64,000 bases of DNA from IMG/VR virus record IMGVR_UViG_3300043446_004437, positions 62,001 to 126,000 of that record. One strand, 5' to 3'. The notes below the pieces were generated by a model, which did not search any database, had not been told where the DNA came from, and worked only from the letters and a program-made list of their open reading frames with translations. This DNA comes from a virus. Both the position numbers and the translations under genes were made by a program. This document shows positions 16,019-41,587 of this stretch, piece by piece; the stretch's first letter is position 1; the number at the start of each line of letters is the position of its first letter.

Positions 16019-16105
16019 GCCCAGGTGGCGGAATTGGTAGACGCAAGGGGCTTAAACCCCCTCGCTATGTGAAATAGCGTACGGGTTCGATTCCCGTCTT
16101 GGGCA
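16019..16105 (+). tRNA. tRNA-Leu (TAA)
   Basis: Type II tRNA of 87 nt. Acceptor GCCCAGG/CTTGGGC, anticodon loop CTTAAAC (anticodon TAA, reads UUA), a long variable arm (CGCTAT/ATAGCG) and T-loop TTCGATT. No encoded CCA. Confidence 0.95.
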
Positions 16106-16122
16106 CAATACAAAGGATTTTT

Positions 16123-18273: not shown

Positions 18274-18377
18274 TGACTTGGTTTGATTGGATAAGATTAG
18301 TATTAGCTATTCCAGTAGGTTTAGCTTTTGTTGGATTAGTTGCAATCTTATTGGATGACATTAAACGCAACAAATAA
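18273..18377 (+). CDS. 34-residue single-pass membrane peptide
   Basis: Starts in a TAATG junction. One hydrophobic span (IRLVLAIPVGLAFVGLVAIL) and a charged tail DDIKRNK. It precedes the deaminase gene by one base. Confidence 0.5.
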   Translation: MTWFDWIRLVLAIPVGLAFVGLVAILLDDIKRNK

Positions 18378-18378
18378 A

Positions 18379-25918: not shown

Positions 25919-26302
25919 ATGAGCTCAGAAGATTACAAAAAATTAGATAAAATAAAAAAGTTTAACTTTTCTTTTGACATGGCATCTAAAACTAAGTCTG
26001 AGCTTCAACAACAACGCGATACAGTAAAGGAAAGAATAGATAAGATCGTCAATCATTTTACAATCGATGACGTTCCTATTCTTTCCTACATACTGCATGT
26101 AACATCTTCTCGCGTAGAATTAAAAAAGCTTGCTAAAGCTATTGATAGGTTAGCTGATCTTGTAGAAATAAATACTTCTTTAAATAATAAACTTAAAGTT
26201 ATTGAAGCTGCGGAAACAGATCCAAATTGGTTTGCTCTTGCATTTGGTGATTTTGATCAAGAAATAGATTCAGATTTAGAAAAATTTTTTACCCAAGAAT
26301 AG
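25919..26302 (+). CDS. Helical protein at the head of the ubiquitin-like cassette
   Basis: 127 residues behind TAGGAGA. Mostly helical, with coiled-coil-like heptads (KSELQQQRDTVKERIDKIV and later LKKLAKAIDRLADLV) and an acidic C-terminal tail. It ends 18 bp before the E2-like gene, so it is probably in the same transcript. Function unknown; a substrate adaptor or scaffold is possible. Confidence 0.65.
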   Translation: MSSEDYKKLDKIKKFNFSFDMASKTKSELQQQRDTVKERIDKIVNHFTIDDVPILSYILHVTSSRVELKKLAKAIDRLADLVEINTSLNNKLKVIEAAETDPNWFALAFGDFDQEIDSDLEKFFTQE

Positions 26303-26320
26303 TTGAAGAAAGAGATTATC

Positions 26321-27973
26321 ATGGATAAAGTTTCATATTCTTTTGTTAAAGATCAAGACAATATTATCTTTAGATCAAAAGTAAAGTCATTTAATTTAGA
26401 CCATGTTACAGATAAAGATATTGCTTCGTTTTACACCGCATTTTCTGACTATTCTTATTTTGATACTGGTCTTTTGCCTTTAGATGGCACCGGTCTTTTA
26501 GGTGTACGCAAAGCCGGCAACCACACTCAAGTCATATATCAGTACAAACCAGGCATGTATTATGTTAACTGGGGTGCTTACGAGAAAGACTCAAATTACA
26601 CAAAATACTATTTTGCTCAACCATACAGAATTGTTATCATAGATTTTCTTGATAACAATCTTTTAGGTGCAAGAACATTTTATGCTGTCGAGCCAGCAAT
26701 ACATTCAAATGTTCAGCTGTATCATGTTAATCTACCAAACATCAATTGCCAAGGGTACCGCGGAAATGCTGTTGGTTGGATATGTTTATATCACAATGAA
26801 GATTGGTCTAAGTTACCTTTTAACGAAAGACTCAATAGAGCATTAGAGCGTTGTTCTGGCGTAGAAGTTTACAATGACGCCAACATGAGCGAAACAGATG
26901 GTCCTCGTTTTTATGAACAATCTGAAATGCCTGATTACACTTATAGCCCAACTTTATGGGAGAACAAATCAGCAGAAGAGGGTTGGGAATGGACATTAGA
27001 TCCATCTCATTGGATACCTGTTAAAGTAAGATCAATTGATTCCCAAACCGATCATTATGCAAACGGCATTCCTCTTACCCTTCTTACGGCAATAACTGGC
27101 AATTACAAAGCGTACTACACTGACACTTATTTGCCAAAACCAATTAACGCTATTACCAGACCTGATTTACAATTACCTAATTCTCAAGTTGTAAACTGGT
27201 TTGTGCAGTCTTACAATACTTCTTCAACAACATTTTCTGGTCTTGATCCTTATTCTCAAAGCCAAGCTCATAGAGAACATGCTGCAACTATACAGCAAAC
27301 TTTATTTGATAACGATGATGAAGAAGAAGACGAAGATTCAGAAAATGAATCAGATGAATTATACTGCCCAGTTGTTCATGAATTTGTTTCTTCTGATTCT
27401 TGTGGCGATAAAAGTTCAACCTATCAAGATGAAGAAGGAAACTGTTACGAAGTTTGTCAATCTTGCGTTTATCACAACGATTTGATTTATGCAAAAAATA
27501 CTATGAAGCTACATAGCTCTTCGGAAAATTTGCATTATCAAGAATGTGAAGAAGAATATTATTATCTTCCAGCTATTAATTCTCCGTACAAAATTTGTCC
27601 AAATTGTGACACTTTACACATATCATTGCTTAAAGATGCTGCAATATTTCCTATTTGGAAATACACCAACCAACCAGGCGATCATGCTTGCTCAACTTGT
27701 ATAGCATCTCATCCAGACAAATATACACAATGTTCAGAATGTTCAACTGATGTTCCTCACAATACTTCTAAATTCTTTAATGATACTTTACATTATGATG
27801 AAGATTATGAAAAAGTTACTTGCGAATCTTGTTTGAAATTAGCTGATAACACTATTCAAACAGAGTTTACTCAAAAAAATTTAGTTCCTCCTTCTGAATT
27901 AATTATAACGGCTATACAAGATTTAGTGAATAAAATTAATTCTACTCCAAACACTGCTGAAGAACCATTTTAA
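26321..27973 (+). CDS. E2-like ubiquitin-conjugating-type protein with zinc-rich C-terminus
   Basis: 550 residues from ATG 26321. Residues about 100-165 read like the core of an E2/UBC fold: PYRIVIID strand, then LYHVNLPNINCQG and VGWICLYHNEDW, closely resembling the E2 pattern of a Pro-Asn turn followed by a catalytic Cys in ICL and a downstream Trp. The candidate catalytic residue is Cys155. The N-terminal FDTGLLP and YQYKPGMYYV blocks are shared with the protein at 36759. Residues about 345-520 carry four or more CxxC pairs, a zinc-ribbon or RING-like array, after an acidic linker. It ends AEEPF. Its neighbours (JAB, ThiF, small beta-grasp protein) support the E2 call; it corresponds in position to PRTRC protein B. 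Activity is unproven. Confidence 0.62.
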   Translation: MDKVSYSFVKDQDNIIFRSKVKSFNLDHVTDKDIASFYTAFSDYSYFDTGLLPLDGTGLLGVRKAGNHTQVIYQYKPGMYYVNWGAYEKDSNYTKYYFAQPYRIVIIDFLDNNLLGARTFYAVEPAIHSNVQLYHVNLPNINCQGYRGNAVGWICLYHNEDWSKLPFNERLNRALERCSGVEVYNDANMSETDGPRFYEQSEMPDYTYSPTLWENKSAEEGWEWTLDPSHWIPVKVRSIDSQTDHYANGIPLTLLTAITGNYKAYYTDTYLPKPINAITRPDLQLPNSQVVNWFVQSYNTSSTTFSGLDPYSQSQAHREHAATIQQTLFDNDDEEEDEDSENESDELYCPVVHEFVSSDSCGDKSSTYQDEEGNCYEVCQSCVYHNDLIYAKNTMKLHSSSENLHYQECEEEYYYLPAINSPYKICPNCDTLHISLLKDAAIFPIWKYTNQPGDHACSTCIASHPDKYTQCSECSTDVPHNTSKFFNDTLHYDEDYEKVTCESCLKLADNTIQTEFTQKNLVPPSELIITAIQDLVNKINSTPNTAEEPF

Positions 27974-28013
27974 TTAAAAATAACGGAATATTATTTTATT
28001 TAGGAGACCACCT

Positions 28014-29744
28014 ATGCAAGAAGAAGAAGTGCAGCCTCAAGTAACCCTTGATCAGCTTCAATATTTTTGGATGCCGTCAGGCGTTCCATGTTTTATTGCT
28101 GACAGGGATACAATTTGTGATATTGTTGAAGACATTGGCTTTAACATATATTATCTTTTGGCCAACAAAAAGACAGTGAAAACAATTCAGCAGCCTGCAA
28201 ATAACAACAAAGTTGGTTACACCACCACAACCCAGCCTGTGCAGGTTGCTACTTACAATTCTTCATTATTTAAGGTTGTGAATAATTTTGTTGGTAGGGT
28301 AATTAAACCATCTGATGATGAATTGCCAGCAGAGTTTTATGTTGCAGAAGAGTGTTGTGAATACAACATGCCTGAATTGCCTTACGTTCTTGTTGAAAAG
28401 ATGGATCAATTCTTTAGACTTGTTTATTCTCAGCACGGCACGGAGTCAATTGTTCTTCTTACTTACGATACAGAAAAACAGGGATCTGATGGTTGGGGTG
28501 TTTTAGTTCCTGATCAGGTAAATACTCCTGCTCACTGCAAATACGATGCGGACAGCATCGCTGCAATCAAACCAGAAAATGTTATGATTGTTGGTTCTGT
28601 TCATAGTCATCCAGAAATGTCTGCGTATGCTTCTGGTACCGACCACGCAGATCAAGCAGATTTTGATGGTCTTCACATCACCTATGGTTGGCAGAAGAGC
28701 GTCAACAATGGCGCCACTCAGTACCACATAGAACTTCAGATGTCTGGATCTTCTTATACCTTGAAACCTGAAGATGTTTTTGAGAATTTTTATATTCAAA
28801 AAGAACCTGATTCTGAAGTTGTAGAATGGTCTACTAAAGTAAAAAAAGCACACCCCCCTATAGCGGGGGGAGTCAGCACGTCGGCACCAGCGCAGGTTCC
28901 AGCGCCGTACAACCAGTCTCATCGGGCTCAACAACCGTATCAAAACTCGACGCAACATACGGCGGCTGGGGAGCCTACGATTGGTAAAAGACTTTTAACC
29001 AAACACTGGAACGACATGGTTGCCGATCTTGGTGACAATGCCATTGTTATTGTTGAAGCAGACCCCCAAATAGCTTATGCTTCAATATGTCCTGCTTGCG
29101 ATTACGATCTTGATACTCAAGATTTTAGAGCAGGATATTGTGCTTGTTGCGATGTTCCAGTTGTGTTAAACAGTCATAGTATTTTTCAAATAGCTTCGAT
29201 ATACAACAGATATTGTCTTGAGAGATCTTTAGATCCAACTCAAATGGTTCCATATTTGTATGGTGAAAACGAAAAGTTTGAACACTTTTTGATGAAACTA
29301 AATATTGAACAAGAAATACACGATATACACAAATATAATTATGGCATAGATGACGATGAAGATGTTCCATTAAGTTTAATAGAATCTTCTGATAATTATG
29401 ATTATTATCACAGTCTAAACGATAATGATTATGATGGAACAAAAACCATATGTTGCAATACACCTATGGAAAATTACATTAATAACTGTAATTGTCTTGT
29501 TCCAATTCTTTATGAAGATTTAAGTGCATTTGAATCGGCAGTTGAAACTATTGAGCTTTATGACACTAATTCTTCTTGTATATATTGCGCTCATTATTAT
29601 ACTCCTGCATGTCCTGCATATCGTTATTTATTAACTCAATATGTTACAAATAAATACGGTTTTGATCTTGAAACCCAAAGAAACGGCATAATACCGTGCA
29701 CTCATTATGAGTCAATGTATGCAGATACATTAGAAAAGGAATAA
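28014..29744 (+). CDS. JAB/JAMM-domain isopeptidase-like protein
   Basis: 576 residues behind TAGGAGACC. The MPN+/JAMM metal site is complete: His197-Ser-His199-Pro, then Ser207 and Asp210 in HSHPEMSAYASGTDHAD, with a probable acid at Glu144 (HGTESIVLLTYD). This is the zinc site of deubiquitinases such as Rpn11 and of PRTRC protein A. Residues about 285-325 are an Ala/Pro/Gln linker encoded by strikingly GC-rich DNA. The C-terminal half has CPACDYD and CACCDVP and further Cys pairs, likely zinc ribbons. Three bases separate it from the E1-like gene. Predicted role is trimming or removing the small modifier. Confidence 0.82.
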   Translation: MQEEEVQPQVTLDQLQYFWMPSGVPCFIADRDTICDIVEDIGFNIYYLLANKKTVKTIQQPANNNKVGYTTTTQPVQVATYNSSLFKVVNNFVGRVIKPSDDELPAEFYVAEECCEYNMPELPYVLVEKMDQFFRLVYSQHGTESIVLLTYDTEKQGSDGWGVLVPDQVNTPAHCKYDADSIAAIKPENVMIVGSVHSHPEMSAYASGTDHADQADFDGLHITYGWQKSVNNGATQYHIELQMSGSSYTLKPEDVFENFYIQKEPDSEVVEWSTKVKKAHPPIAGGVSTSAPAQVPAPYNQSHRAQQPYQNSTQHTAAGEPTIGKRLLTKHWNDMVADLGDNAIVIVEADPQIAYASICPACDYDLDTQDFRAGYCACCDVPVVLNSHSIFQIASIYNRYCLERSLDPTQMVPYLYGENEKFEHFLMKLNIEQEIHDIHKYNYGIDDDEDVPLSLIESSDNYDYYHSLNDNDYDGTKTICCNTPMENYINNCNCLVPILYEDLSAFESAVETIELYDTNSSCIYCAHYYTPACPAYRYLLTQYVTNKYGFDLETQRNGIIPCTHYESMYADTLEKE

Positions 29745-29746
29745 TT

Positions 29747-30505
29747 ATGAACCCTAAACGTTTTGTTGTTATAGGAGCTGGTGGCGTAGGCACATGGCTT
29801 ATTTCAGGTTTAGTAAGATTGCTTGAATGGAAAGCTCCAGGTTCAGGTTTGATAATTGTTGACGGCGACAATTATGAACAAAAGAACAAAGAGCGTCAAG
29901 AGTTTACAAAAATTGGCAATAAAGCTGTTGTTAAAGCTCATGAACTTACACCTAGTTTTCCAAAAACAACTATTATTCCTGTACCCAAATGGGTTGTAGG
30001 AGACGACTTTAAAGGAGTTACGACAGATGAAGATTCTCCAAAAATTAAAGCATCAGCTTTATTATCTGAAGGAGATGTGGTCTTTGCGGTTGTCGATAAT
30101 TTTGCTGCGCGCAAGATTATTTTTGATGCGGCGTCGCGGTTAGACAACATTGATGTATTTACTGGTGGCAACGACGATGCTTTATTTGGTTCAATATATC
30201 ATTATCAAAAAAGAGATGGCGTTGCTATAACAGAACATCCAGCAGTGTTTCACCCCGAATATGATAACGCACCAGACAAAAATCCTGGTGAATTATCATG
30301 TCAAGAAAGATCTGAAATAGAAGGTGGAACACAGTTACTTGCCACTAATATGGCAGTTGCTGCATTTATTCTTGGTAGAGTACAAAAGACAATTGTGCTA
30401 GACCAAAGCCCCGAAGAAACAGAGATATATTTTGATTTAGGTATCGGTAAATCCGAACCATATAACAGAATGGTATCTTATGTTTCAGAACCTGTTCAAG
30501 TATAA
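29747..30505 (+). CDS. ThiF/E1-like activating enzyme
   Basis: 252 residues. Rossmann nucleotide loop GAGGVG at residues 10-15, acidic strand end IIVDGDNYE with Asp39, then the conserved Asn47-x-x-Arg50-Gln51 that contacts ATP in the E1/MoeB/ThiF family. DNFAARKII gives the second conserved Asp/Arg region. Cys185 in LSCQERSEIEGGTQ is apparently the only Cys and sits where the catalytic thioester Cys is expected. It would adenylate the C-terminal Gly of a ubiquitin-like protein, very likely the product of the next gene. Equivalent to the ThiF protein of PRTRC cassettes. Confidence 0.88.
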   Translation: MNPKRFVVIGAGGVGTWLISGLVRLLEWKAPGSGLIIVDGDNYEQKNKERQEFTKIGNKAVVKAHELTPSFPKTTIIPVPKWVVGDDFKGVTTDEDSPKIKASALLSEGDVVFAVVDNFAARKIIFDAASRLDNIDVFTGGNDDALFGSIYHYQKRDGVAITEHPAVFHPEYDNAPDKNPGELSCQERSEIEGGTQLLATNMAVAAFILGRVQKTIVLDQSPEETEIYFDLGIGKSEPYNRMVSYVSEPVQV

Positions 30506-30523
30506 ATAAAATAAGGAGCAATC

Positions 30524-30775
30524 ATGGAAAACAATATGTCAAACGCTTCCGCATCTCAGCCAACTGGTATGGCAAATTTGAGGTTTGGTGTTTACAACCA
30601 GCCTACAAATGTTGCTGGAAAATCTGTTCAGCAAGCGCGCGAACAGTTTTCTAAAATTTGGGGTATCCCAAATGACGCAGTTGCTTACAAGGGCAAGGAC
30701 AAGCTCGACGAGAATTACGTTATTCAGCCAGGTGACAACGTAGAATTCCACCGTCGTGCCGGCGAGAAGGGCTGA
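30524..30775 (+). CDS. Ubiquitin-like (beta-grasp) modifier candidate ending in Gly
   Basis: 83 residues behind AAGGAGC. After a 15-residue Ser/Ala/Asn lead come two strands (NLRFGVYNQPTNV), one helix (SVQQAREQFSKIWGI), and GKDKLDENYVIQPGDNVEF, the beta-grasp order seen in ThiS, MoaD and ubiquitin. The last residues are RRAGEKG with Gly at the very end. PRTRC protein C has the same length class and also ends in KG, as I recall. Located directly between the E1-like gene and a strong terminator. Conjugation through the terminal Gly is inference. Confidence 0.72.
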   Translation: MENNMSNASASQPTGMANLRFGVYNQPTNVAGKSVQQAREQFSKIWGIPNDAVAYKGKDKLDENYVIQPGDNVEFHRRAGEKG

Positions 30776-30794
30776 TTAATTCAGTCATAAGATC

Positions 30795-30843
30795 GTGGGA
30801 AGGCTCTAATTTCCGCTAATAGAGCCTTCCCACATTTTTTTTA
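30795..30843 (+). terminator. Strong Rho-independent terminator after the modifier gene
   Basis: A perfect 13-bp stem (30795-30807 with 30821-30833, core GTGGGAAGGCTCT) with a 13-nt loop and nine T residues. It may raise stability of the upstream mRNA and separate modifier expression from the AAA+ gene. Confidence 0.93.
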
Positions 30844-30874
30844 AAAGGCGTAAGTCTATCTATCAGGGGAAAAA

Positions 30875-32479
30875 ATGTTATTTGATGAAATAAAACTTGG
30901 TTATCCATCTTTATGGCTTAAAACCACAGAATATTCAAGAGCCGCAGAAAGTTTAGTTTCTTATGATTTTAGAGACTTTTATACAATAAATTTTGAGTCT
31001 GGCTTTTCTCAGTATGTTGGTGGTGCATGGAAAACAATTCTTATAGAATCTATAAATCCAGAAAATGGAGAAACAATCCATCAATCTACATTTGATCCTT
31101 CTGTATCGTTAAATTATTTACTTAATCTTAAATCAGATAAGCCAGTTACTTATTTGCTACCAATTTTAGGCAAACCTGATTCTGTTCTTCTTCCATACAT
31201 TTCTTTTGTTGCTGCTTTAAATGATAATTACAGAAAGAACTTTTGGCTTGATAATATTGAAGCAACATCGCTTCAAGTAGTATTTATATCTTCTGCCGAT
31301 GCTCCAGAAGAATATTTGCATATGTTTAAAACTGTTCAGTTTTCTTATCCTAATTCAGAAGAACTTTTTACAGTAGTTAATCATATCGATACTTCTTCTG
31401 CTGGAAGATTTGTTGATCAAAATGAAATCAAAGATATTGTTCGTTCTGGCTTAGGTCTTACAGAAGATCGTTTTGTTGATCTTTGTTTACGTTCTATTGT
31501 CAACAACAATAAGATTGATAGCAAATATGTTTATGATCAAAAGATGGCTCATATTAAAGAAGCTGGTATTTTGGAGATTATTAAACCTAAAATATCTTTT
31601 GATAATATTGGTGGCTTAGATAATATTAAAGATATTATTCAAAGAACAAAACTATTGTGGGCTAACCGGGAACAAGCAAAATCTTTTGGCGTTGTTCCGA
31701 TTAGAAGAGTTCTTATGGTGGGCGTTCCCGGCACCGGCAAGTCTGCTATTTGTCAAGCAACTGCGAAAGAACTTGGCCTTGACTTGGCCCGTACTGGCAT
31801 TAGCCAAGTTATGAACTCTTTTGTCGGCAAATCAGAAGCAAACATGAGAGCTGTTTTTGATCAGATTAAAATGATGACTCCGCTTTGTGTTTGGATCGAC
31901 GAGTTTGGTCGCGATCTTTCAGGTGGCTCTAGCAGTTCTCATGTTGACGCAGGCACTACTGATCGTGTTCACGGTGAATTTTTGACAGGATTGCAGGAAC
32001 TTCCAGAAGATACTTTCCTTATGTGTGCCGCAAACCAGCTAGATAATCTTCGTCCAGAAATGCTTCGTGCAGATCGTTTCGACAAGATAGTCTTTGTTGG
32101 TTTGCCTTCACATCAAGAAAGAAAAGATATCTTTAAAATTATTCTTAAAGATATTGAAACTGATCACATCTTTGATTACGATGCACTTGCGGAAAAAGCA
32201 CAGTACTTTACTGGCGCAGAAATTACCGCACTAATCAAAGAAGTTAAATTCTTTGTTGTTTCTTCACAACTTCGACCAATCAATACTCAAGATATTATAT
32301 CTTATATTCCTACTGTAAGAAATATTCTCTGGAACAAAAACAGAGATATGATTAAAAACATGTATCAGTATGCTCTTGAACAATGGGATTGGGCTTCTAC
32401 TGAACAGCTACAAGATGCTAAAATGATTATACACGGTACGAGAAGCAACTCTGATAAAGACTTAGCTTGGAAAATATAA
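30875..32479 (+). CDS. AAA+ ATPase, unfoldase-like
   Basis: 534 residues. Residues 1-235 are an N-terminal domain; the AAA core begins FDNIGGLDNIKDII. Walker A GVPGTGKS at 283-290, Walker B CVWIDE with Asp342-Glu343, sensor 1 CAANQ, and an arginine-finger region ending LRADRFDKIV. The pattern of the core is closest to the FtsH/proteasomal/Ycf46 branch of classical AAA proteins. It lies right after the modifier terminator and in the same region as a proteasome-like peptidase gene (40976), so a role as the ATP-driven unfolding partner is attractive but inferred. No membrane segment. Confidence 0.88.
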   Translation: MLFDEIKLGYPSLWLKTTEYSRAAESLVSYDFRDFYTINFESGFSQYVGGAWKTILIESINPENGETIHQSTFDPSVSLNYLLNLKSDKPVTYLLPILGKPDSVLLPYISFVAALNDNYRKNFWLDNIEATSLQVVFISSADAPEEYLHMFKTVQFSYPNSEELFTVVNHIDTSSAGRFVDQNEIKDIVRSGLGLTEDRFVDLCLRSIVNNNKIDSKYVYDQKMAHIKEAGILEIIKPKISFDNIGGLDNIKDIIQRTKLLWANREQAKSFGVVPIRRVLMVGVPGTGKSAICQATAKELGLDLARTGISQVMNSFVGKSEANMRAVFDQIKMMTPLCVWIDEFGRDLSGGSSSSHVDAGTTDRVHGEFLTGLQELPEDTFLMCAANQLDNLRPEMLRADRFDKIVFVGLPSHQERKDIFKIILKDIETDHIFDYDALAEKAQYFTGAEITALIKEVKFFVVSSQLRPINTQDIISYIPTVRNILWNKNRDMIKNMYQYALEQWDWASTEQLQDAKMIIHGTRSNSDKDLAWKI

Positions 32480-32487
32480 GGATAAAT

Positions 32488-33135
32488 ATGTCAGATCAAA
32501 TTGATTTTTCTAACATTGAAGAAGTATTAGAAAGCATACAAGTAGATAAAGATGTTCCCAACAACCATTCTTTATCTGCAAATAAACAGTATGATCAGGA
32601 CCTTTATAAAAAATGGTTTCGTTCTAAAACACAAAGCGGATTTCTTTCTATCAAACCATGGTATCAAGGTTTGAAATTTAAGATTGATATTGGTAAAACA
32701 TCTCCAGATGGAAAGCTTTTAGGAAGCACTATGGTGTTTGTCGACGCCATAGATTTTGCAGCATATTTAGATTCTGTTGTTAACGGTACAGCAAAACTTA
32801 ATTTTCCCGCCAATGAAAAAAATGGTAGCGTTACAGATGAATCTTTTGTTTCCTATGGCGGTGGCATCATAGAATCAAAACCAATATCAAGAATATTTAA
32901 ATCTCACTATTGGCAGAACTCTGACAAATCTTATGATTCTAATGCATTCGTTTGGAAATGCGGACATTTTGCTGCACGTAAAACAGAAAGCGGAGCTTTT
33001 ATTCCAAACATGTCTTCACCTGTATCTGTAGACTCAATTAAAGTTACAAGACAGGATCTTGTAAGCATTTCTTATATGCTAAAATTGTCACTAACATCTC
33101 ACGTGACAAACAATCCTGATTGGTATAACATATAA
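32488..33135 (+). CDS. Hypothetical protein of the cassette region
   Basis: 215 residues from ATG 32488 behind AAGGATAAAT; a longer reading from 32467 overlaps the AAA+ gene. Beta-rich middle with GGGIIESKPISRIFK, no metal motif. Probably cotranscribed with the AAA+ gene. No family recognised. Confidence 0.68.
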   Translation: MSDQIDFSNIEEVLESIQVDKDVPNNHSLSANKQYDQDLYKKWFRSKTQSGFLSIKPWYQGLKFKIDIGKTSPDGKLLGSTMVFVDAIDFAAYLDSVVNGTAKLNFPANEKNGSVTDESFVSYGGGIIESKPISRIFKSHYWQNSDKSYDSNAFVWKCGHFAARKTESGAFIPNMSSPVSVDSIKVTRQDLVSISYMLKLSLTSHVTNNPDWYNI

Positions 33136-33137
33136 TT

Positions 33138-33524
33138 ATGACTGATAACTACACTGAAGCTAACATTGAAATAATGACTAAGATTCTTTCTTCTTTAGTT
33201 GAAGAAGTATATCAAAAAATATTAACTGATATCGAGTCTCAGTTTAAAGATATACTTGCAAAATTAGAAAAATATGAAGATCAAGTTGCGACAATAGTGT
33301 ATGCTTATGGAGAGCAAGCTATAGTTATGGAAGCGTTAACTTCCCAACTTGAGTATGCTACTCCAGAAGCTCAAAAAGCTTTTACTGATAGTTTATCAGA
33401 GCAACGAAAGAAAATGATACAGGTTCTCAATGAAAGCTCTAAAGGATTTATGGCCGACAACGATCCAGGAATTGCAAGAGCCCTTGGCAACCTGGTTGAA
33501 AAAAAGTTATCTGACACAAATTAA
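33138..33524 (+). CDS. Helical hypothetical protein
   Basis: 128 residues, two bases after the previous stop. Almost entirely helical (LVEEVYQKILTDIESQ, ILAKLEKYEDQVATIV), probably a coiled-coil adaptor or scaffold. Unknown. Confidence 0.65.
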   Translation: MTDNYTEANIEIMTKILSSLVEEVYQKILTDIESQFKDILAKLEKYEDQVATIVYAYGEQAIVMEALTSQLEYATPEAQKAFTDSLSEQRKKMIQVLNESSKGFMADNDPGIARALGNLVEKKLSDTN

Positions 33525-33537
33525 TAACAATGAATGC

Positions 33538-33717
33538 GTGTTATTTGTAGATAAACATAATTATTTACTTTTACAAAATATTGTTTATCTTTCACAGATA
33601 TATCCTCTTGTTAAATCATTATGTCCTGAATTTAAATCTTTACATTTATTAGAAACAAATCTTTTAACTTATTTAAGACAATCAAAAATAGAATTGTATT
33701 CTGTAGAGGTAGTATAA
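33538..33717 (+). CDS. Small hypothetical protein, start uncertain
   Basis: 59 residues from GTG 33538; the frame is open from 33430 inside the previous gene, with several TTG options and no clear ribosome site. Helical, Leu/Tyr-rich. Its stop overlaps the next start (TAATG), which supports translation through this frame. Confidence 0.45.
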   Translation: MLFVDKHNYLLLQNIVYLSQIYPLVKSLCPEFKSLHLLETNLLTYLRQSKIELYSVEVV

Positions 33718-34376
33718 TGCTTATAACTAATTTTAATGATATTTCTTCTTTTAACCATTTTTGGAATGATGGCATTGATAGACTGCACAACTGCAGGCCA
33801 CTTACAGAAGAACTGTATGTTTTATTATCTTTTAATCGGTTAGATATAGTCAAAGCTCATGTAGAGTCCGGAGCATCAGTATCTAACTATGTTGAACAAA
33901 TTCAACAAAATCTTCCTGAACAATATCAAACTATCGTTTCGGAATACCATACAAAATTTAAATCCGAACACACTGCGTACGTTTATCCTTACAGTTCAAC
34001 AAAATTCTTTAACAGTATGTTTAAAGAAATTTTACCCTCCGCTGCAAAAAAACTTTACTCATTAATTTTTAATGATTCTTCTTTTATACAAATGTATGAT
34101 TCAACTGCAACATCTTTCAAAGGATGTATCTTATTTAAGATTGTTCCTACTTTAAAGAACTTAAAAGAAATAAATAATATAGTTTTTAACACAGTTTCAT
34201 CTGATTCTGTCGCAGTTCTTCAAGATGTATTATCTCATATACAGCTAATAGTAGAAGACAATGAAGCTTACAAAAATTATATCTTAGAACTTGAATCTGC
34301 TGTAATTAATCTAAACAGTAAAATAGATCTTCTTCAAAAAGAAGGCATGAACGGTTATCTTCTTAGCTGGCATTAA
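33717..34376 (+). CDS. Hypothetical protein
   Basis: 219 residues, soluble, helix-rich at the C-terminus (IQLIVEDNEAYKNYI, NSKIDLLQKEG). Starts in a TAATG junction. No family recognised. Confidence 0.65.
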   Translation: MLITNFNDISSFNHFWNDGIDRLHNCRPLTEELYVLLSFNRLDIVKAHVESGASVSNYVEQIQQNLPEQYQTIVSEYHTKFKSEHTAYVYPYSSTKFFNSMFKEILPSAAKKLYSLIFNDSSFIQMYDSTATSFKGCILFKIVPTLKNLKEINNIVFNTVSSDSVAVLQDVLSHIQLIVEDNEAYKNYILELESAVINLNSKIDLLQKEGMNGYLLSWH

Positions 34377-34396
34377 TGTGAAAAGGAAATATATAT

Positions 34397-35266
34397 ATGT
34401 ATAAAATAAAAACTTCATTAAGCGGCTCATCATATGCTGCTATCCCTGTTGATTCAGTCAACAGTATGAATTTATTTGTAAATCAATACAGTAAAATTCC
34501 TTTAAATAAAGTTGTTTACGATTACTTTAATACAGGTCAAGTATATGTAAACTTCCCATCTAGCTCAGGTAAGATTCTTGGTTTTTCTGATACTATGTGC
34601 ACCATACTCGTCAGGTATGTTGTCAAGCCTTCTTTCTTTAACCAGTTTGATGATAATCATACTTTTGAAGTTCCTAGTTGGGCTACTAGGTTCGTTGATG
34701 ATCAGTTAAATGGCTGGATGCTTGATATTGGTTTAGTCTTTGAAATTGACAGTTCACCTGCTGCAAATCCAATCTGTAAACATTATACTGGTTACACTTC
34801 TGAAAACAATTATGTAACTTCTAAAAATTATTTGTTTGCCAACAAACCTAATTCTATTAGATCTAATTGTTCAAATTCAAAAGTTTATGTGAATAAACTT
34901 ACTCCACATTCATGCATATACAGTGATACAAAAACTCCTTTTGTTAGCTGTCCTTTTTATGAATATGATTATGAAGTAGTTGAAAGTTTTCAAATACACA
35001 AAAACACGCATTCTCCACAAGAATTTGAACTAAGATATATTCCTTGTTCAGATAGCTTTGCAATATATCATTTTTATGATATTACAAATAAACAAATTAA
35101 TTATTCTATCTTTGAAAAAGATACACCAGAATTAAAAGATACTGTTATGTTGGCTGTAAATGAAATCATTTCATCTTACTCTAACTATGAAGTTAAACAA
35201 ATTCAAAATCAAGGCGTTTCTGTCAGTGCGCCAGAAAAGAAAAGCTACATACTTTCTTTAGTCTGA
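34397..35266 (+). CDS. Hypothetical protein in the E2-like group
   Basis: 289 residues behind AAAAGGAAAT. Beta- and aromatic-rich, with several isolated Cys (PICKH, NCSNS, HSCIYS, SCPFY, IPCSDS). It sits immediately before two E2-like genes and has a similar overall composition, but I cannot align the ERPP, Pro-Trp and Cys blocks, so a relation is only suggested. Confidence 0.62.
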   Translation: MYKIKTSLSGSSYAAIPVDSVNSMNLFVNQYSKIPLNKVVYDYFNTGQVYVNFPSSSGKILGFSDTMCTILVRYVVKPSFFNQFDDNHTFEVPSWATRFVDDQLNGWMLDIGLVFEIDSSPAANPICKHYTGYTSENNYVTSKNYLFANKPNSIRSNCSNSKVYVNKLTPHSCIYSDTKTPFVSCPFYEYDYEVVESFQIHKNTHSPQEFELRYIPCSDSFAIYHFYDITNKQINYSIFEKDTPELKDTVMLAVNEIISSYSNYEVKQIQNQGVSVSAPEKKSYILSLV

Positions 35267-35273
35267 GGTCACC

Positions 35274-36734
35274 ATGCAATACAACATTTTATCCTGTAAT
35301 GAACAGGACACAACGCTTTACAATACAAGTTACAATATGAATAATTATTATTCTTATATTCATAATATAACTAAGTATTTGTCACAAAACGGCACAGATA
35401 TTACCGCTCCAATACTTACAACTGTGTCAATGCGTCGAACTGTTAGCGTTTCTACAGATAGAGTTTATGATTCCATTAACGCCAACGCAGCAGGAAAATA
35501 CAACCCATCATTTTATCCAATGGCTGTACGCTATATATCTGCTAAAGGAACTTACGTAGTTGAACGACCACCTTTTCAACTAGAAGTTGACTATAGAATG
35601 GGCTCTGCTCATTCTGGTCATCCCAAAATGCCGCCTGTAAAAATTTGGGTTCCATGGACTGTTATGGTTTTTTCAGCTTCTTCTTTTGCAGAAGGTAATT
35701 TTTCTGAAGCTCAGCTTTATTTTTCTGATACCTCTTTGCAATCGCTAGACCAGCATCTAGTCCCCTGCTTTTATCCCAATTCTTATAACGATGCCAGAAT
35801 ATGTTTTTCTAATTCTTTAAGTGATTTTTCAGATGTTTTAGATATGAAGGAATTTGAAAACTTCAATATATCTTACATCTATAATTATATCTTTAATAAT
35901 TATATGATGGGTGGATGGAACTCTGACTTACACTCAAATCTACTAGGATCTCTTTCGACTCACAACTTCTCTGTTATTAATTCTTATCCAGAATTAAAAC
36001 TCTTTTTGCAACCTTCTAGCGATCAATCATTTTACGAAAAACTATCTACAGTTTTTCCTAAAGAACTTTTTTCAAAATTAAAAAGATTTTATAAACAAGA
36101 GTTCAATTATTTTAAAAGCAGAATTAGTCCTGAAAAATTGTTTGTAAGAAATTTTGGTATATTTTCTGCTTTTACACTAGAACAAAAGTTAAATTTTATT
36201 TCTTCGATAAAAGATCTTACATATTCTCAAGTTAAAGATCGTTATACGCTTTCTGCAATTGTTCAAAGAATTGACAAAAATGATTCTATTGTTGATTCTT
36301 CATCTAAAAATGCTTTACTTACTTCAATAAATTCAGATTATTTTAATTATGATTATAGTGAAGTAGATTATCATGTTTACTTTTATAATTATAATCCTCA
36401 GGATTTACAAAATCATCATCGTTTATCTTCTCTCTTTTCCAACAACTTGTGTGCGTCTTTAATTGGCGACATGATTACTTGTTTTAATGACGAAGAACCG
36501 ATTGCTTTTGCTGTTAATGCTCAAACTGGTTCTTATGACATAATTACTAATTATTCTGCGTACGATTATATAAAAGAAATCATAGACACTGTCGTTGCTA
36601 AAGCTCAAGAATTTCTACAGGAAAATTCTTCAGACAAAAACAAACAAAAAGTTTGTACGTATATTTCTAATGAAATAAACCATAATTTTACTCCTGATAA
36701 AGTTGAACATGCTTTAAAGTATTCTTTTTCCTAA
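35274..36734 (+). CDS. E2-like paralogue (486 aa)
   Basis: ATG eight bases after the previous stop, preceded by GAGGTC. Blocks in order: YVVERPP (residues 94-100), WVPWTVMVF with Pro127-Trp128, LYFSDTSL, then HLVPCFYPNSYNDARICFSN with candidate catalytic Cys177. The same order (ERPP, Pro-Trp, an Asn-x-Tyr turn then Cys) occurs in the gene at 36759, and resembles the E2/PRTRC-B plan of strand, Pro-Asn turn and Cys. The long C-terminal half is helical with no zinc site. Probable conjugating-enzyme-like or inactive E2-variant protein. Confidence 0.52.
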   Translation: MQYNILSCNEQDTTLYNTSYNMNNYYSYIHNITKYLSQNGTDITAPILTTVSMRRTVSVSTDRVYDSINANAAGKYNPSFYPMAVRYISAKGTYVVERPPFQLEVDYRMGSAHSGHPKMPPVKIWVPWTVMVFSASSFAEGNFSEAQLYFSDTSLQSLDQHLVPCFYPNSYNDARICFSNSLSDFSDVLDMKEFENFNISYIYNYIFNNYMMGGWNSDLHSNLLGSLSTHNFSVINSYPELKLFLQPSSDQSFYEKLSTVFPKELFSKLKRFYKQEFNYFKSRISPEKLFVRNFGIFSAFTLEQKLNFISSIKDLTYSQVKDRYTLSAIVQRIDKNDSIVDSSSKNALLTSINSDYFNYDYSEVDYHVYFYNYNPQDLQNHHRLSSLFSNNLCASLIGDMITCFNDEEPIAFAVNAQTGSYDIITNYSAYDYIKEIIDTVVAKAQEFLQENSSDKNKQKVCTYISNEINHNFTPDKVEHALKYSFS

Positions 36735-36758
36735 TTTTTAAATTAAAAAGGATTTGAT

Positions 36759-37943
36759 GTGGATCTTATAAATAATTTTATTATAGCCGATAATGAACGC
36801 GATCATTATTATTGGCATACAGGCTTTAAACCTTTTGTTCGCTACAGTAGCGTTGTATTAGACGAAACTCATACGATAACTGATAAAGATACAGTCGCTC
36901 AGTTATCATCTAGCTTTTTTAATTCTTTAGTTAGTTATAAAACTCAGTCTTTTGATTCTGGTTTAATTCCGCCAGGCTTAAAAATGCTTGGTTCTAATTA
37001 TCTAGTATTTGAAAGGCCTCCGACAGTTAAAAACATTTTTTATGTTCCTGCACATAAAAGCAGTGTTCCAGATAACACCGATAACTTGCAGCAGGTTTAT
37101 GCTTTACCAATTCCTTGGCAATTATATTTTGTATATTTTAATCCTGATATGTACACTTATTCTGTATATATGTTTTTCATGAATACAAGTATCAATAGTC
37201 CTAATCAAAATCTTTATCTTCCACCACTTCCAAATTTTTATACTCATTCTTTATTGTGTCCTCCAGTTATGAGTACAATGGAAGATGTTGACCGATACTC
37301 TAAAAATGTTTCTGGCATCATGCACTGCGCTTACGATTGGGTTTGGAATTCTGGCACAAACCATGATTTAACAGAAGCATGCATGCACGTTTCTTTTCAG
37401 TGCCCTAAAGAAAATTCTGTTATGAAGTATTTAGACGATAATGTATACAATGTATATTTTAACAAAAATCGTTTTTTAACATCTAATAGATATCAAGCTA
37501 GCACATCATACATGAGTCATTTATTTTCTTCTTGGGAAAAATGTACTTTATCTGAAGTTTGTAATTTTGTTTGGCCAAATACATCTGCGCCTTTTAGAAA
37601 TTTTAATTATGAGTCTAACGACATTACAGGCACCAGTGTTTATCAGGATAATTTAGTAAGCTATTTAGATAATGGCGATTATGACATGGATGATATTCAA
37701 GATATTATTGAGAATGATTCTTATGATCATAATGATTACATTAATTACTTGTATGCAGAAAAATTGATATCAGAAGACGAAATGTTTAATGATTTAAACA
37801 GAGCTTGGAGTCATGTTTATACTTATGAAGAAGTTATCCCAAAATTAATTGCTGACGTTTCTACAACTTTTTCTAGAACTACTAACAGTTTTTCACGCAC
37901 TTTAGTTTCTATTGATCAGGCTCGTCGTAATATTTCTGCTTGA
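36759..37943 (+). CDS. E2-like paralogue (394 aa)
   Basis: GTG start behind AAAAAGGATT. FDSGLIP (residues 65-71) matches FDTGLLP of the E2-like protein at 26321; YLVFERPP (81-88) matches ERPP of the protein at 35274; LPIPWQLYF with Pro119-Trp120 and LYLPPLPNFYTHSLLC with Cys167 complete the shared blocks. This protein therefore links the other two into one family. An acidic, helical C-terminal region follows (NGDYDMDDIQDIIE). Whether Cys167 is catalytic is unknown. Confidence 0.52.
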   Translation: MDLINNFIIADNERDHYYWHTGFKPFVRYSSVVLDETHTITDKDTVAQLSSSFFNSLVSYKTQSFDSGLIPPGLKMLGSNYLVFERPPTVKNIFYVPAHKSSVPDNTDNLQQVYALPIPWQLYFVYFNPDMYTYSVYMFFMNTSINSPNQNLYLPPLPNFYTHSLLCPPVMSTMEDVDRYSKNVSGIMHCAYDWVWNSGTNHDLTEACMHVSFQCPKENSVMKYLDDNVYNVYFNKNRFLTSNRYQASTSYMSHLFSSWEKCTLSEVCNFVWPNTSAPFRNFNYESNDITGTSVYQDNLVSYLDNGDYDMDDIQDIIENDSYDHNDYINYLYAEKLISEDEMFNDLNRAWSHVYTYEEVIPKLIADVSTTFSRTTNSFSRTLVSIDQARRNISA

Positions 37944-37979
37944 TTTTTTGAGTTACCTATGATACTATATGATCATATA
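37940..37979 (+). promoter_or_regulatory. Promoter with overlapping palindromic operator
   Basis: TTGATT (37940-37945), 17 bp, TACTAT (37963-37968), overlapped by the 14-bp perfect palindrome TATATGATCATATA (37966-37979). It overlaps the end of the E2-like gene and drives the MerR-like regulator at 38004, which may bind the palindrome. Confidence 0.6.
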
Positions 37980-38003
37980 TAAACTTAAATAAAGGTAGAT
38001 AAT

Positions 38004-38300
38004 ATGCCTAAAAATTCAATAACAGAACCTATTTTTAATAGGTCTGAAGTTGCTCAAATACTAAATGTATCCACACTCACTATTTCCAATAGAGAAAAAA
38101 ATAACAAATATCCTTCACCTAAAAGAGATTTAAATAATTATAGAATCTATAGTTTAAATGATGTTTTCAATCTTCAGTTAATTACATACAACCATATTGA
38201 TCCAAAACCAATTATATCGATAATGTATGATAAAGGTTTTGAAGATGTAAAACAGCTAGGCAAGATGATTGATGCTGCTTTATCAAGAAGGACTCAATAA
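38004..38300 (+). CDS. MerR-type helix-turn-helix regulator
   Basis: 98 residues. FNRSEVAQILNVSTLTISNR, then PSPKRDLNNYRIYSLNDVF, is the MerR-like winged-helix start: HTH, basic wing, and RxYxxxD turn. The effector domain is short and helical. Likely autoregulator through the palindrome at 37966. Start ATG 38004 follows AAAGGTAGAT. Confidence 0.75.
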   Translation: MPKNSITEPIFNRSEVAQILNVSTLTISNREKNNKYPSPKRDLNNYRIYSLNDVFNLQLITYNHIDPKPIISIMYDKGFEDVKQLGKMIDAALSRRTQ

Positions 38301-38301
38301 C

Positions 38302-38550
38302 GTGCAGGAACAATACGATAACCCAACAGCAGACAGCTTAGTTGAGCAAGTTTCTGAACAAGTTTCTACTGACAAAATTTTAGATTTAAAAAATGGTATC
38401 TATAATTTGTTTGTATCTTTGTTCAATGATTACACAATTGACTTTGGTCCAATTAAAGCTGTAGAATTATCAACACAATTTCTTGATGAAATATCAGAAA
38501 ACTTTAAGCAGATCCTTAATCAAAACACAGAAAGCAAGGAAAAACCATGA
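38302..38550 (+). CDS. Small helical hypothetical protein
   Basis: 82 residues from GTG 38302, one base after the previous stop and behind AAGGAC; a longer reading from 38269 overlaps the regulator. Helical and acidic. Coupled to the SSB-like gene by ATGA. Confidence 0.58.
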   Translation: MQEQYDNPTADSLVEQVSEQVSTDKILDLKNGIYNLFVSLFNDYTIDFGPIKAVELSTQFLDEISENFKQILNQNTESKEKP

Positions 38551-38978
38551 TAGACCCACGCAATTTACTCAATCTTACTGGCGGAGTTGTAACCGACGTA
38601 GAGTTGATAAATGATAAAATAGCAAAGTTTCGTTTAGCTGTTGATTACGCAGGATCAGAAAAAGGTTCTGATAATACATCTGGTTATTTTGATGTTGTGT
38701 ATTATCTTAAGGATTCTAACGGTTTTATCGGAAAGAATGCTACATTTATTCATGGTCAGATTAAAAATGACAAGATTAAAAAGGGCGCAAAACTTCAGAT
38801 CGTTGGTCGCTTGGTTCAGGAAAGATGGAAGCAAGATGATCAAAATAAAAATCGCGTTGTTGTAGTTGCTGAGCACATTTCTTATGCAGCAACTGCTGGA
38901 GCCCAAGGAACTAAAACATCTTCCGCTGGAACATCATCTGACACAGAGACGCAGAGTTCTGTTCCAGATAGTTTCTAA
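38547..38978 (+). CDS. Single-stranded DNA-binding (OB-fold) protein
   Basis: 143 residues. Beginning NLTGGVVTDVELINDKIAKF, a DVVYYLKDS strand, and KGAKLQIVGRLVQERWKQDD, NRVVVVAEHIS matches the SSB OB-fold order, including the typical 'V-x-G-x-L' strand. A Ser/Thr-rich flexible tail follows and ends PDSF, a reduced version of the acidic SSB tip. It would coat ssDNA in replication. Coupled upstream by ATGA and downstream by TAATG. Confidence 0.8.
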   Translation: MIDPRNLLNLTGGVVTDVELINDKIAKFRLAVDYAGSEKGSDNTSGYFDVVYYLKDSNGFIGKNATFIHGQIKNDKIKKGAKLQIVGRLVQERWKQDDQNKNRVVVVAEHISYAATAGAQGTKTSSAGTSSDTETQSSVPDSF

Positions 38979-39727
38979 TGGAAGAATTTAGCGAAGAGTT
39001 ATTAAACTCTTTAATAGAAGAAGCTTTGAATGAAAAGGGGGAGAGCTTATTAAGACCGGCTTCTAGTATGTATCTTTCATATAATGAAACAGATTTATTG
39101 TCTCTTGTTTATAACTATATGTCTAAACACTTACCAGAATCTGAGCTTAATAATGTTTTTCAAGAGTTTCGTTCAGAGCTTCTTTCTAGGAAAGTTCCTA
39201 TTACTCCAAAAGAACTACACACGGTTACAAAAAACTGTAGAAAATGCGGCATATCTGCAACCGCAGAACTTCCTAAGTGGAATGTAATAGATCCTGATGT
39301 AGTTATTGTTGTTGAATCTCCTTCAATAGAACCAGAAGCCATAAATCTTATGATAGATTCTATAAAAGAATCTAAGTTTAAATCATCAGATTTATGTTTG
39401 ACTTATGTTAATAGATGTCCTAAATACGGTAAATATGATAACAAAGAAATAATTAATTGTTCACCATATTTGCATACAGAAATACAAAGTTTAAATCCTA
39501 AACTTATTGTAACTATGGGAGCTTTAGCAGCTTCTGTTTTATTTGGAACAGATATTAAACTAAAAGATTACCGAGGCAATGTTACTTGGCTTGGCTATTG
39601 GCCTATATTGCCAACATATTCTCCAGGATATGTTTTAAAATCTGGTGCTAATTCTATTGAGCAGTTTAAATCTGATATTGTTCAAGCTTATCAGTTTGTA
39701 CATAAACCTAAAAAGGAAGTTGTGTAA
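38978..39727 (+). CDS. Uracil-DNA glycosylase family 4/5-like protein, divergent
   Basis: 249 residues. Four Cys in the layout of the 4Fe-4S UDGs: NCRKCG, NRCPK and INCSP. LIVTMGALAASVLFG and PTYSPGYVL follow the family plan. But the usual GEAPG-type first motif is VVESPS and the HP motif is SP, so key catalytic residues are changed. It may be an inactive or retargeted glycosylase, possibly a DNA-binding factor; family-4-like SPO1-type and PolIII-associated forms are known. Adjacent to SSB, fitting DNA metabolism. Confidence 0.7.
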   Translation: MEEFSEELLNSLIEEALNEKGESLLRPASSMYLSYNETDLLSLVYNYMSKHLPESELNNVFQEFRSELLSRKVPITPKELHTVTKNCRKCGISATAELPKWNVIDPDVVIVVESPSIEPEAINLMIDSIKESKFKSSDLCLTYVNRCPKYGKYDNKEIINCSPYLHTEIQSLNPKLIVTMGALAASVLFGTDIKLKDYRGNVTWLGYWPILPTYSPGYVLKSGANSIEQFKSDIVQAYQFVHKPKKEVV

Positions 39728-40125
39728 TGAAAGATACAATATATACTTATTCTTTTGTTTCTGATCTTAATCAATCTCAGCTTTCTCAATTTGAAGAACT
39801 TGTTACAAAAGATGTCAAAAATGGCTCTGCTCCAGAAGAGTTGGAAATATTAAAATCTAATATTGATTTGTGGCTGTATTTTCTTTCTTCGATTAGAAGA
39901 AACGTAGAATATCATTTATCTTCTCGAACTGCTGCACGCAAAGCAAAAATATCAGAAATGATACAAAATAAAGATTCTAAAGAGCTTCTTGATTCTTTTA
40001 GAAAATCAGAAGATGAGTGGAGAGTAAACGCTATAAAATTTCTTTCTACAATAGAAAAGAAAACTTTATATGTTAAGATGATTGTTAAAGAACAAAAACA
40101 AGCAGAAAAAATACAGTATCTTTAA
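39727..40125 (+). CDS. Helical hypothetical protein
   Basis: 132 residues, ATG overlapping the previous stop. Nearly all helix, Lys/Ser-rich, with a repeated long coiled-coil-like tract (LLDSFRKSEDEWRVNAIKFL). No known family. Confidence 0.62.
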   Translation: MKDTIYTYSFVSDLNQSQLSQFEELVTKDVKNGSAPEELEILKSNIDLWLYFLSSIRRNVEYHLSSRTAARKAKISEMIQNKDSKELLDSFRKSEDEWRVNAIKFLSTIEKKTLYVKMIVKEQKQAEKIQYL

Positions 40126-40574
40126 TGCAGCCCGTATTACATTGTCCTGAAATAATACATTCAATTGAAGCAACTTTAGATGAAGAAGATTCATTTGAAC
40201 TCGTAAAAAATTTTTCTCAGGTTTTTCCTTTTTATTATCATTACAGTGTCTCTCAACATGGCTTTAAACAGGTTCTTGATTTAGCTACTACTTTTTCTGC
40301 TCTTCATTCTAGAGTAAAAATAAAAATAAGTGGTTTTGAACAAACAATAAATTCATCTATTCCTTTAGATGTTTTACGTTACAAGATGCTTCCAGATGGC
40401 TCTTATTGCTCTCTAGGAAGCTCTAGGATCGCTAATCAACCTAGTTACATAGTAGAGGGCGCTTTATGGTCAAATGGCTTTTATTATTTGACTAGAGAGC
40501 AAGATTCAATTAACATACTTGATTTACATTTTTATGTTGACCAGTATACAAAAACGATGCACAGGTACATATGA
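40125..40574 (+). CDS. Hypothetical protein
   Basis: 149 residues, ATG sharing one base with the preceding stop. Soluble alpha/beta with aromatic-rich C-terminal half. Coupled to the KTSC gene by ATGA. Unknown. Confidence 0.62.
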   Translation: MQPVLHCPEIIHSIEATLDEEDSFELVKNFSQVFPFYYHYSVSQHGFKQVLDLATTFSALHSRVKIKISGFEQTINSSIPLDVLRYKMLPDGSYCSLGSSRIANQPSYIVEGALWSNGFYYLTREQDSINILDLHFYVDQYTKTMHRYI

Positions 40575-40861
40575 CAATTAAATCTTATTTTTTCCGCGAT
40601 AGTTCTTTTATAACTAATGTTTCCTATAGTGAAGATACAGAAGTTTTATATATTAAATTTAATTCTGGTACCACATGGGTTTATTATGATGTATCTCAAG
40701 AAGTTTATAATAGACTTGTAAAGTCTACTTCTGTTGGTGAATATTTTAATAAAAACATTCGAAATAAATATTCATCTCAAAGAATTAATTATAAAATTGA
40801 GGATAGCCAAAATGTCCAGGAACAAGAAAAAGAAGAAAAAGAACAGAAATCTTTATCATAA
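40571..40861 (+). CDS. KTSC-domain small protein
   Basis: 96 residues. FITNVSYSEDTEVLYIKFNS, then WVYYDVSQEVYNRLVKSTSV, then GEYFNKNIRNKY follow the KTSC domain pattern (Tyr-x-Tyr-x-x-V-P... then GxYFNxxIR). KTSC domains occur alone or near aminoacyl-tRNA-synthetase-like and phage proteins; exact function unknown. Acidic/Lys/Gln tail. Confidence 0.75.
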   Translation: MTIKSYFFRDSSFITNVSYSEDTEVLYIKFNSGTTWVYYDVSQEVYNRLVKSTSVGEYFNKNIRNKYSSQRINYKIEDSQNVQEQEKEEKEQKSLS

Positions 40862-40979
40862 TTATTATAATTCTTCTGTTTCTGTAACTTTTGATCAGAT
40901 TCAACATTTGGCAGTACAGGTGTTTGGTTCTCGTTTTTACCAGCATAATGAACCAAATGATGATATAATAAATACATGA
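40812..40979 (+). CDS. Small basic peptide overlapping KTSC gene
   Basis: 55 residues from ATG 40812, in another frame, starting within the KTSC gene and ending four bases into the peptidase gene (ATGA). Very Lys-rich N-terminus (MSRNKKKKKKNRN), then a short helix. The coupling to the next gene gives the main support. Confidence 0.45.
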   Translation: MSRNKKKKKKNRNLYHNYYNSSVSVTFDQIQHLAVQVFGSRFYQHNEPNDDIINT

Positions 40980-41587
40980 CGACCATCGTTGCTTTACAAG
41001 GTGATAATTTTGCTGTCGTATATGTAGATTCTCGTATATCAACATCTGATTCTTCTGGTTTTATATCGCAGGTTTCTACCTTAAAAGAAGGTTCTGGTAA
41101 AGTAGCATTAAACGGAAAGTATTTGTTGGGTGCTGCCGGAGATGTGAGGGCAATTAACATTTTGCATCACGTTTTTCAGCCTCCTACTCCCCCTCCAAAT
41201 ATGAAAGGTAAAAAACTAGATCAGTTTTTTACTGCTAAGTTTATACCTGCTTTGCGTGAATGTTTTGAGCAGCAGGGATACGCAATGCCAGACATAGAAG
41301 AAAAAGAACATATCGCAGAACAATCTTCAACAATACTTGTTGTTATACATGGCACAATATATGTTGTTGATGGAGATTATTCTTGGATATCTGATTCTTC
41401 CGGAATGTATGCTTTAGGTACCGGAGCACCTTATGCTTTAGGCGCTATGCAAGCATTGAATCTAAACAAAAAACTTACCATACCTCAGGCTAAAAAAATG
41501 GCCTTAAAAGCTTTAACCACCGCTGCCAAATTCGACCCACACACCGGATCTCCTTTTCATTATCATTTACAGGAACAGGCTAAATAG
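40976..41587 (+). CDS. HslV/20S-proteasome-beta-like Ntn peptidase
   Basis: 203 residues. Starts Met-Thr-Thr-Ile-Val, as HslV does; removal of Met1 exposes Thr2 as the N-terminal nucleophile. VVYVDSRIS places Asp18 (mature Asp17) where proteasome subunits have their active-site Asp. KYLLGAAGDVRAINIL equals the 'GxAGxxxDA' helix of HslV, and MYALGTGAPYALGAMQAL equals 'AIGSGGPYAxAAAxAL'. The active-site Lys is at 37 or 42 rather than mature 33, with a short insertion. Probably assembles into a ring peptidase working with an AAA+ unfoldase; the AAA+ gene at 30875 is the candidate partner. Its position in the ubiquitin-like region is striking. Confidence 0.8.
   Translation: MTTIVALQGDNFAVVYVDSRISTSDSSGFISQVSTLKEGSGKVALNGKYLLGAAGDVRAINILHHVFQPPTPPPNMKGKKLDQFFTAKFIPALRECFEQQGYAMPDIEEKEHIAEQSSTILVVIHGTIYVVDGDYSWISDSSGMYALGTGAPYALGAMQALNLNKKLTIPQAKKMALKALTTAAKFDPHTGSPFHYHLQEQAK

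Follow-up and report, generated by a model that had tools for sequence, protein, structure and literature searches.

The 64,000-nucleotide stretch of DNA analyzed here (the window; bases 62001 to 126000 of the 216,024-base IMG/VR virus record IMGVR_UViG_3300043446_004437) carries a core cassette (window positions 26303 to 30775, + strand) encoding an E2-like protein, a JAB/JAMM protein, an E1-like protein and a ubiquitin-like protein (Ubl). This cassette is probably a phage-borne branch of the PRTRC/type 6d systems of reversible Ubl conjugation, distinguished by extra E2 copies and zinc modules and, in this lineage, by a linked AAA+ ATPase. The assignment is based on the Ubl fold, on family membership and homology, on the conservation of catalytic residues and of gene linkage, and on purifying selection; the chemistry, the targets and the coupling to the AAA+ protein are proposed mostly from homology. 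Every gene named in the initial annotation of the window is present on the + strand where it had been placed.

E1-based scans returned 40 relatives in 39 other IMG/VR records (many of them near-duplicates) and a contig of a metagenome-assembled genome (MAG; L057). Locus counts out of 42 or 40 draw on these relatives, and residue conservation is given over distinct sequences. Conserved linkage of the E1 neighbors, set beforehand as a test, was found: the order E2-JAB-E1-Ubl-AAA is kept in each of the 40 viral loci as far as its contig extends, together with about ten flanking genes. The catalytic residues are invariant or nearly so across 26 to 32 distinct sequences (E1 Cys185, E2 Cys161 and its PN motif, the JAMM residues and the GEKG end of the Ubl). 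Among close relatives, the nonsynonymous rate (dN) is far below the synonymous rate (dS) for the cassette genes, indicating purifying selection. Because the order recurs in 40 viral loci and dN is far below dS, the cassette is not a chance assembly of genes. Adjacency alone is no proof of joint function, since the gene order of the whole region is conserved in this lineage. Between close relatives, pN/pS is 0.06 to 0.15 for the Ubl and E1 and 0.56 to 0.66 for the E2-like paralogues. The system thus combines a stable activation core with E2 bodies that change fast.

The most divergent member, L057, has the arrangement X127-E2-JAB-E1-Ubl, with no AAA+ gene adjoining the Ubl; just 2.8 kb of contig follow. 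X127 denotes a conserved 127-residue protein encoded directly upstream of the E2 (25919..26302, +), which occupies this position in 38 of the 42 loci, L057 included (84 to 89% amino acid identity, dN about 0.1).

The E1-like activating enzyme (29747..30505, +) contains a GAGGxGTWL nucleotide-binding loop, an NxERQ motif and Cys185 within ELSCQER. It matches Pfam ThiF (E = 2.8e-11) and NCBIfam PRTRC_ThiF (2.2e-6), and all 28 distinct sequences compared keep Cys185, which bears out its earlier description as a ThiF/E1-like gene with a single such cysteine. Since its PRTRC_ThiF score (27 bits) falls under the NCBIfam curated cut-off of 145 bits, the window E1 belongs to a divergent branch. Aligned with the plasmid E1 (hhalign, 99.5%, E = 1.1e-22), its ELSCQER segment pairs with the plasmid ELSCDEA.

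The Ubl (30524..30775, +) is an 83-residue protein with the C-terminus HRRAGEKG. Pfam and NCBIfam scans of this protein gave nothing useful. Its AlphaFold model (pLDDT 80) shows a beta-grasp fold, its elements ordered beta-beta-alpha-beta, and a loose tail at the C-terminus. The top 50 PDB matches of the model in Foldseek are ubiquitin, ubiquitin variants, SUMO, NEDD8 and other Ubls (E from 1e-4 to 1e-3), so that the beta-grasp fold and terminal Gly first proposed from sequence are now joined by a predicted ubiquitin-type fold. Its pN/pS (0.06 to 0.12) is below that of every other core cassette gene, and its C-terminal [RK]x1-2GxKG motif is unique to the Ubl among 2,312 open reading frames (ORFs). 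Four distinct Ubl sequences, viral or from the MAG, carry two extra residues after the Gly (NI, SL, SK). These extensions, together with tandem plasmid Ubls joined at KG, suggest that the Ubl is made as a precursor and processed.

A ThiF-family E1 and a beta-grasp protein, a fold common to ThiS and MoaD, could also belong to a sulfur-carrier system, in which the Ubl would act as a ThiS/MoaD-like donor, the ThiF-like enzyme would activate it and the JAB protein would trim its precursor, for example for tRNA thiolation; the window does contain seven tRNA genes. This explanation is nevertheless very improbable. The Ubl ends in KG rather than GG, among the cassette proteins that were scanned none fell into a sulfurtransferase, rhodanese or thiolase family, and the three linked E2-like proteins with their conserved Cys would be unneeded by a sulfur carrier.

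The main E2-like conjugating enzyme (26303..27973, +, from a TTG; probable start at the ATG at 26321) combines an E2_D/PRTRC_B-like N-terminal domain bearing the signature LYHVNLPNINCxGYRGNxVGWxC161LY with a Cys-rich C-terminal part, a probable zinc module built of CxxC pairs that is a separate ORF in one relative (L004) and absent in another (L034). Cys161, the PN motif and the flanking GW-x-CL motif are invariant in 32 distinct sequences. For the zinc module, a RING/E3 identity was considered and rejected, the matches being at chance level. Two further E2-like proteins are encoded downstream, both fast evolving. Paralogue 2 (35274..36734, +; ERPPF ... YPN-x5-RIC177F) has Cys177, Asn169 and ERPP invariant in 28 sequences, and paralogue 3 (36759..37943, +; DSGLIPPG ... 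FERPP ... LYLPPLPNFYxxxxLC167) has Cys167 invariant in 26. By hhalign, paralogue 3 is related to paralogue 2 (98.9%) and to the main E2 (92%). An iterated profile search over 1,268 ORFs, seeded with plasmid E2 proteins, recovered 36759 in the first pass (E = 1.2e-6), then 35274 in the second (8.5e-23) and then 26303 (2.9e-20). It produced no stray matches, its only other hits being E2s of other systems. The two additional E2-like paralogues of the initial annotation are thereby recovered from a plasmid E2 profile. A fourth candidate, the protein encoded at 34397, was rejected (hhalign under 0.1%).

The JAB/JAMM isopeptidase-like protein (28014..29744, +) comprises an N-terminal domain, the JAMM core and a C-terminal Cys-rich probable zinc domain. 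Its matches to Prok-JAB (3.5e-5, just below the gathering score) and PRTRC_A (3e-4), together with the conserved residues E144, H197-x-H199, S207 and D210 (HxH-x7-S-x2-D), uphold the JAB/JAMM assignment. The C-terminal Cys are present in 97% of 31 sequences, and in L057 the Cys-rich module has an ORF of its own. A JAB protein and a Ubl in a tailed phage have a precedent in lambda gpK and gpI (Iyer et al. 2006, PMC1779556), and the pair could accordingly serve tail assembly without any conjugation. The probability of this is close to negligible: the set includes E2-like proteins and an E1 whose Cys is invariant, an NlpC domain was not detected, the Ubl is not fused to a tail protein, and the neighbors are DNA-metabolism genes, not recognized tail genes.

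The kinship of the set lies with operon type 6d, the plasmid and bacterial combination of E1, family D E2, JAB and Ubl described by Iyer et al. 2006 (PMC1779556). The order E2-JAB-E1 recurs on plasmids of Cytobacillus, Bacillus velezensis, Chlorohelix, cyanobacteria (Leptolyngbya, Nostoc) and PRTRC-bearing proteobacteria. Besides the E1, phage proteins aligned by hhalign with their plasmid counterparts are the JAB protein (97%, E = 1.2e-10), 36759 (94.8%) and 35274 (74%); unrelated neighbors stay below 0.5%. The plasmid Ubls and the phage Ubl have a common G-x-K-G end, and a Cytobacillus plasmid encodes the tandem Ubls joined at KG mentioned above. Among ten cassette-region proteins scanned against NCBIfam, none matched PRTRC_E, PRTRC_F or ParB. 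Because these PRTRC companions were not matched, the phage set is best placed as a relative of the wider 6d type, not as PRTRC proper.

The AAA+ ATPase (30875..32479, +) consists of a roughly 230-residue N-terminal region and a CDC48/PAN/FtsH-like domain with intact Walker A and B motifs (AAA 3.2e-23, phrog_8638 2.5e-70); in the PDB it matches Cdc48 (1e-53). A highly conserved 222-residue protein is encoded after it (32467-33135; 85-89% identity, dN about 0.1). The HslV/proteasome-beta-like Ntn peptidase (40976..41587, +) begins MTTI, with Thr at mature position 1, Asp17 and a conserved Lys (Proteasome 6.6e-7, phrog_1040 6.5e-23), and these three catalytic residues are conserved in 13 aligned sequences. 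Both proteins thus match the families to which they had been assigned. The peptidase gene is present in 30 of 40 records, the window included. Three of the absences are contig ends; the other seven records form one sub-lineage that keeps the cassette on contigs that continue (three of about 180 kb or more).

From these parts, the initial annotation had concluded that the virus carries a complete tag, cleave and degrade pathway; the purposes suggested for it there, removal of host defense proteins or control of virion maturation, are guesses. In such a dedicated system, the Ubl would mark host or phage proteins, the AAA+ protein would unfold them and the HslV-like peptidase would destroy them. 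Consistent with this, a single strand encodes all the parts inside 16 kb, the AAA+ gene is next to the Ubl gene throughout the 40 viral loci, the ATPase domain of its product is nearest to Cdc48/PAN-type unfoldases, and the peptidase is common among the records with its catalytic residues kept. The distribution of the partners speaks against it. Besides the sub-lineage lacking the peptidase and the Ubl of L057 lacking an adjoining AAA+, five complete phage genomes with E1-type genes contain neither the HslV-like peptidase nor this AAA+ family. Conversely, members of the AAA+ family are common among phages lacking this E1, and phage DSL-LC01 encodes an HslV-like peptidase with no detectable E1. 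Within the window, the AAA+ and peptidase genes are 8.5 kb apart, separated by the E2 paralogues, SSB, uracil-DNA glycosylase (UDG) and genes of no assigned function. The AAA+ C-termini vary among relatives, and no HbYX-like docking tail was found in them. Dedicated tag-and-degrade is therefore unlikely, and a self-contained viral analogue in bacteria of the ubiquitin-proteasome pathway, with several E2s and a Cdc48-like AAA+ protein feeding the peptidase, is decidedly so. Of the earlier proposal, the virus-borne conjugation cassette akin to PRTRC is supported and the complete degradation pathway is not. Because the distributions of peptidase and AAA+ do not track the E1 cassette, the shared unit is the conjugation cassette, with AAA+ linked in this viral lineage only and the peptidase optional. 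The HslV-like peptidase gene is lineage-variable and probably lies outside the core.

Under the preferred assignment to type 6d-like conjugation, JAB would trim Ubl precursors that have residues past the Gly. The E1 would adenylate the C-terminal Gly of ...GEKG and then hold the Ubl as a thioester on Cys185, from which it would pass to the main E2 (Cys161) and probably also to the paralogues 35274 (Cys177) and 36759 (Cys167). The E2s would attach the Ubl to lysines of phage or host proteins, with the fast-evolving paralogues perhaps differing in target choice, and JAB could remove it again. In this lineage, the neighboring Cdc48-like AAA+ protein may extract or remodel the tagged proteins, with the HslV-like peptidase as an optional companion. 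Since SSB and UDG are encoded nearby in the window, and replication or partition genes lie beside other members (ParB, RNase H-like, DnaN, Rad52, RadC, primase or UDG), DNA metabolism is a reasonable candidate for the target area; targets around phage DNA replication or maintenance are the preferred, though weakly supported, guess.

Several points weigh against the assignment. The link to DNA metabolism is guilt by association, and ordinary phage gene order could explain these neighbors. The main E2 had no direct Pfam or NCBIfam match, its profile found no sequence match in the PDB, and its direct profile comparison with plasmid E2s is modest (hhalign, 36%, E = 3.8e-4), becoming strong only via the paralogues. 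Structurally, the AlphaFold model of full-length 26303 (pLDDT 55) is of too low confidence to reveal a UBC fold, and the PDB fold search returned no meaningful match. The E2 identity proposed for the gene at 26321 is therefore carried by profile homology and the conserved Cys motif. For the Ubl, the match between the plasmid profile and the phage protein is weak, with a best E of about 0.07 and 61% by hhalign, so the link between them relies on fold, C-terminal motif and gene context. The PRTRC B and C families were likewise not reached from the phage proteins by hidden Markov model (HMM) scan.

Judged from its sequence, the record is that of a tailed phage; a large terminase is encoded at record positions 36518-38056, and 9 of 11 large relatives also carry a terminase. 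WhiB is not known outside actinobacteria and their phages, and the presence of a WhiB gene at window position 23955 (also found in 27 of 42 loci) therefore suggests an actinobacterial host. Neither megablast nor tblastn with the E1 turned up a direct relative among named phages, and an E1 search against plasmids gave two weak matches and nothing else. Elsewhere in the window are genes for a subtilase (S8) protease (16099-17568, Pfam 2.4e-35), a deoxycytidylate deaminase-like protein (18340-18831) and the UDG (38978-39727). Upstream of the cassette, an M50 membrane peptidase-like gene (25080-25538) is present in 29 of 42 loci, L057 included, with the HExGH motif in 19. L057 itself, a 10.4 kb contig of a MAG labelled Ectothiorhodospiraceae, carries the cassette and the M50 peptidase; it is probably phage DNA that was binned with this MAG. 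Another contig (3300042868_009074, 267,766 bases; L036 and L042) contains two full cassettes with E1s 76% identical, reflecting either the assembly joining of two phages or a real duplication.

In the open literature searched, phage Ubl cassettes were not described and type 6d sets were reported from plasmids and from bacterial genomes; the words ThiF, JAB, E1-like, Ubl and HslV are all missing from a survey of 224 jumbo phages. Conserved E1-E2-JAB-Ubl sets over several phage lineages, including some that can be cultured on laboratory hosts, would show phages using eukaryote-like conjugation for their own biology, beyond facing it as host defense. The long-open function of PRTRC can thereby be tested in phages like Arash or KLEB27-3, and many phage 'thiamine biosynthesis' labels would be corrected.

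Known phage HslV-like proteins (phrog_1040; the PPH and AAH groups of Fuchs et al. 2021, PMC8665760) resemble the window peptidase as phage Ntn peptidases with an N-terminal Thr. The window protein differs in its larger insertion, and such peptidases are carried with or without the cassette.

CBASS Cap2/Cap3, Bil and Bub are bacterial anti-phage host defenses that share the general E1, E2 and JAMM logic with the phage set (for Cap2 of CBASS, see PMC10097602). Those are host systems, whereas here the genes are phage-borne and the set is like type 6d.

More distant E1s led to two further loci (L117, L118) and to cultured phages. Bacillus phage KLEB27-3 and Salmonella phage Arash encode E2-like, JAB and E1 proteins, Flavobacterium phage FpV4 and crAss-like Bacteroides phages (Kolpuevirus) have looser sets of JAB and E1, and Xanthomonas phage PhiXhv-12 has an E1 beside a long Cys-rich protein. 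The E1-like genes of crAss-like and Xanthomonas phages (L119, L120, L122 and related records) are annotated as 'thiamine biosynthesis' though they adjoin JAB or Cys-rich genes; these labels are likely misannotations. The cultured-phage sets share with the window a phage-encoded E1 and JAB, an E2-like protein in Arash and KLEB27-3, and what appears from sequence to be a Ubl-like N-terminal domain in the crAss-like sets. They differ in falling on other branches of the E1 tree, and the complete genomes contain neither this AAA+ family nor the HslV-like peptidase. The E1 tree is poorly resolved, with long branches, and does not settle a single origin of the phage sets. In Arash, Gp246-Gp249 were detected in particle preparations (PMC10585845), which indicates at most expression, as the proteome labels do not fully agree with the GenBank ones and 116 of 252 proteins were detected.

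The closest comparison is with PRTRC/type 6d. The phage set shares with it the E2-JAB-E1 order, the homology of E1, JAB and E2, the G-x-K-G end of the Ubl and the N-terminal domain of JAB. It differs in being phage-borne, in placing the Ubl gene after E1, in having three E2-like proteins, and in its Cys-rich modules on E2 and JAB and its AAA+ neighbor.

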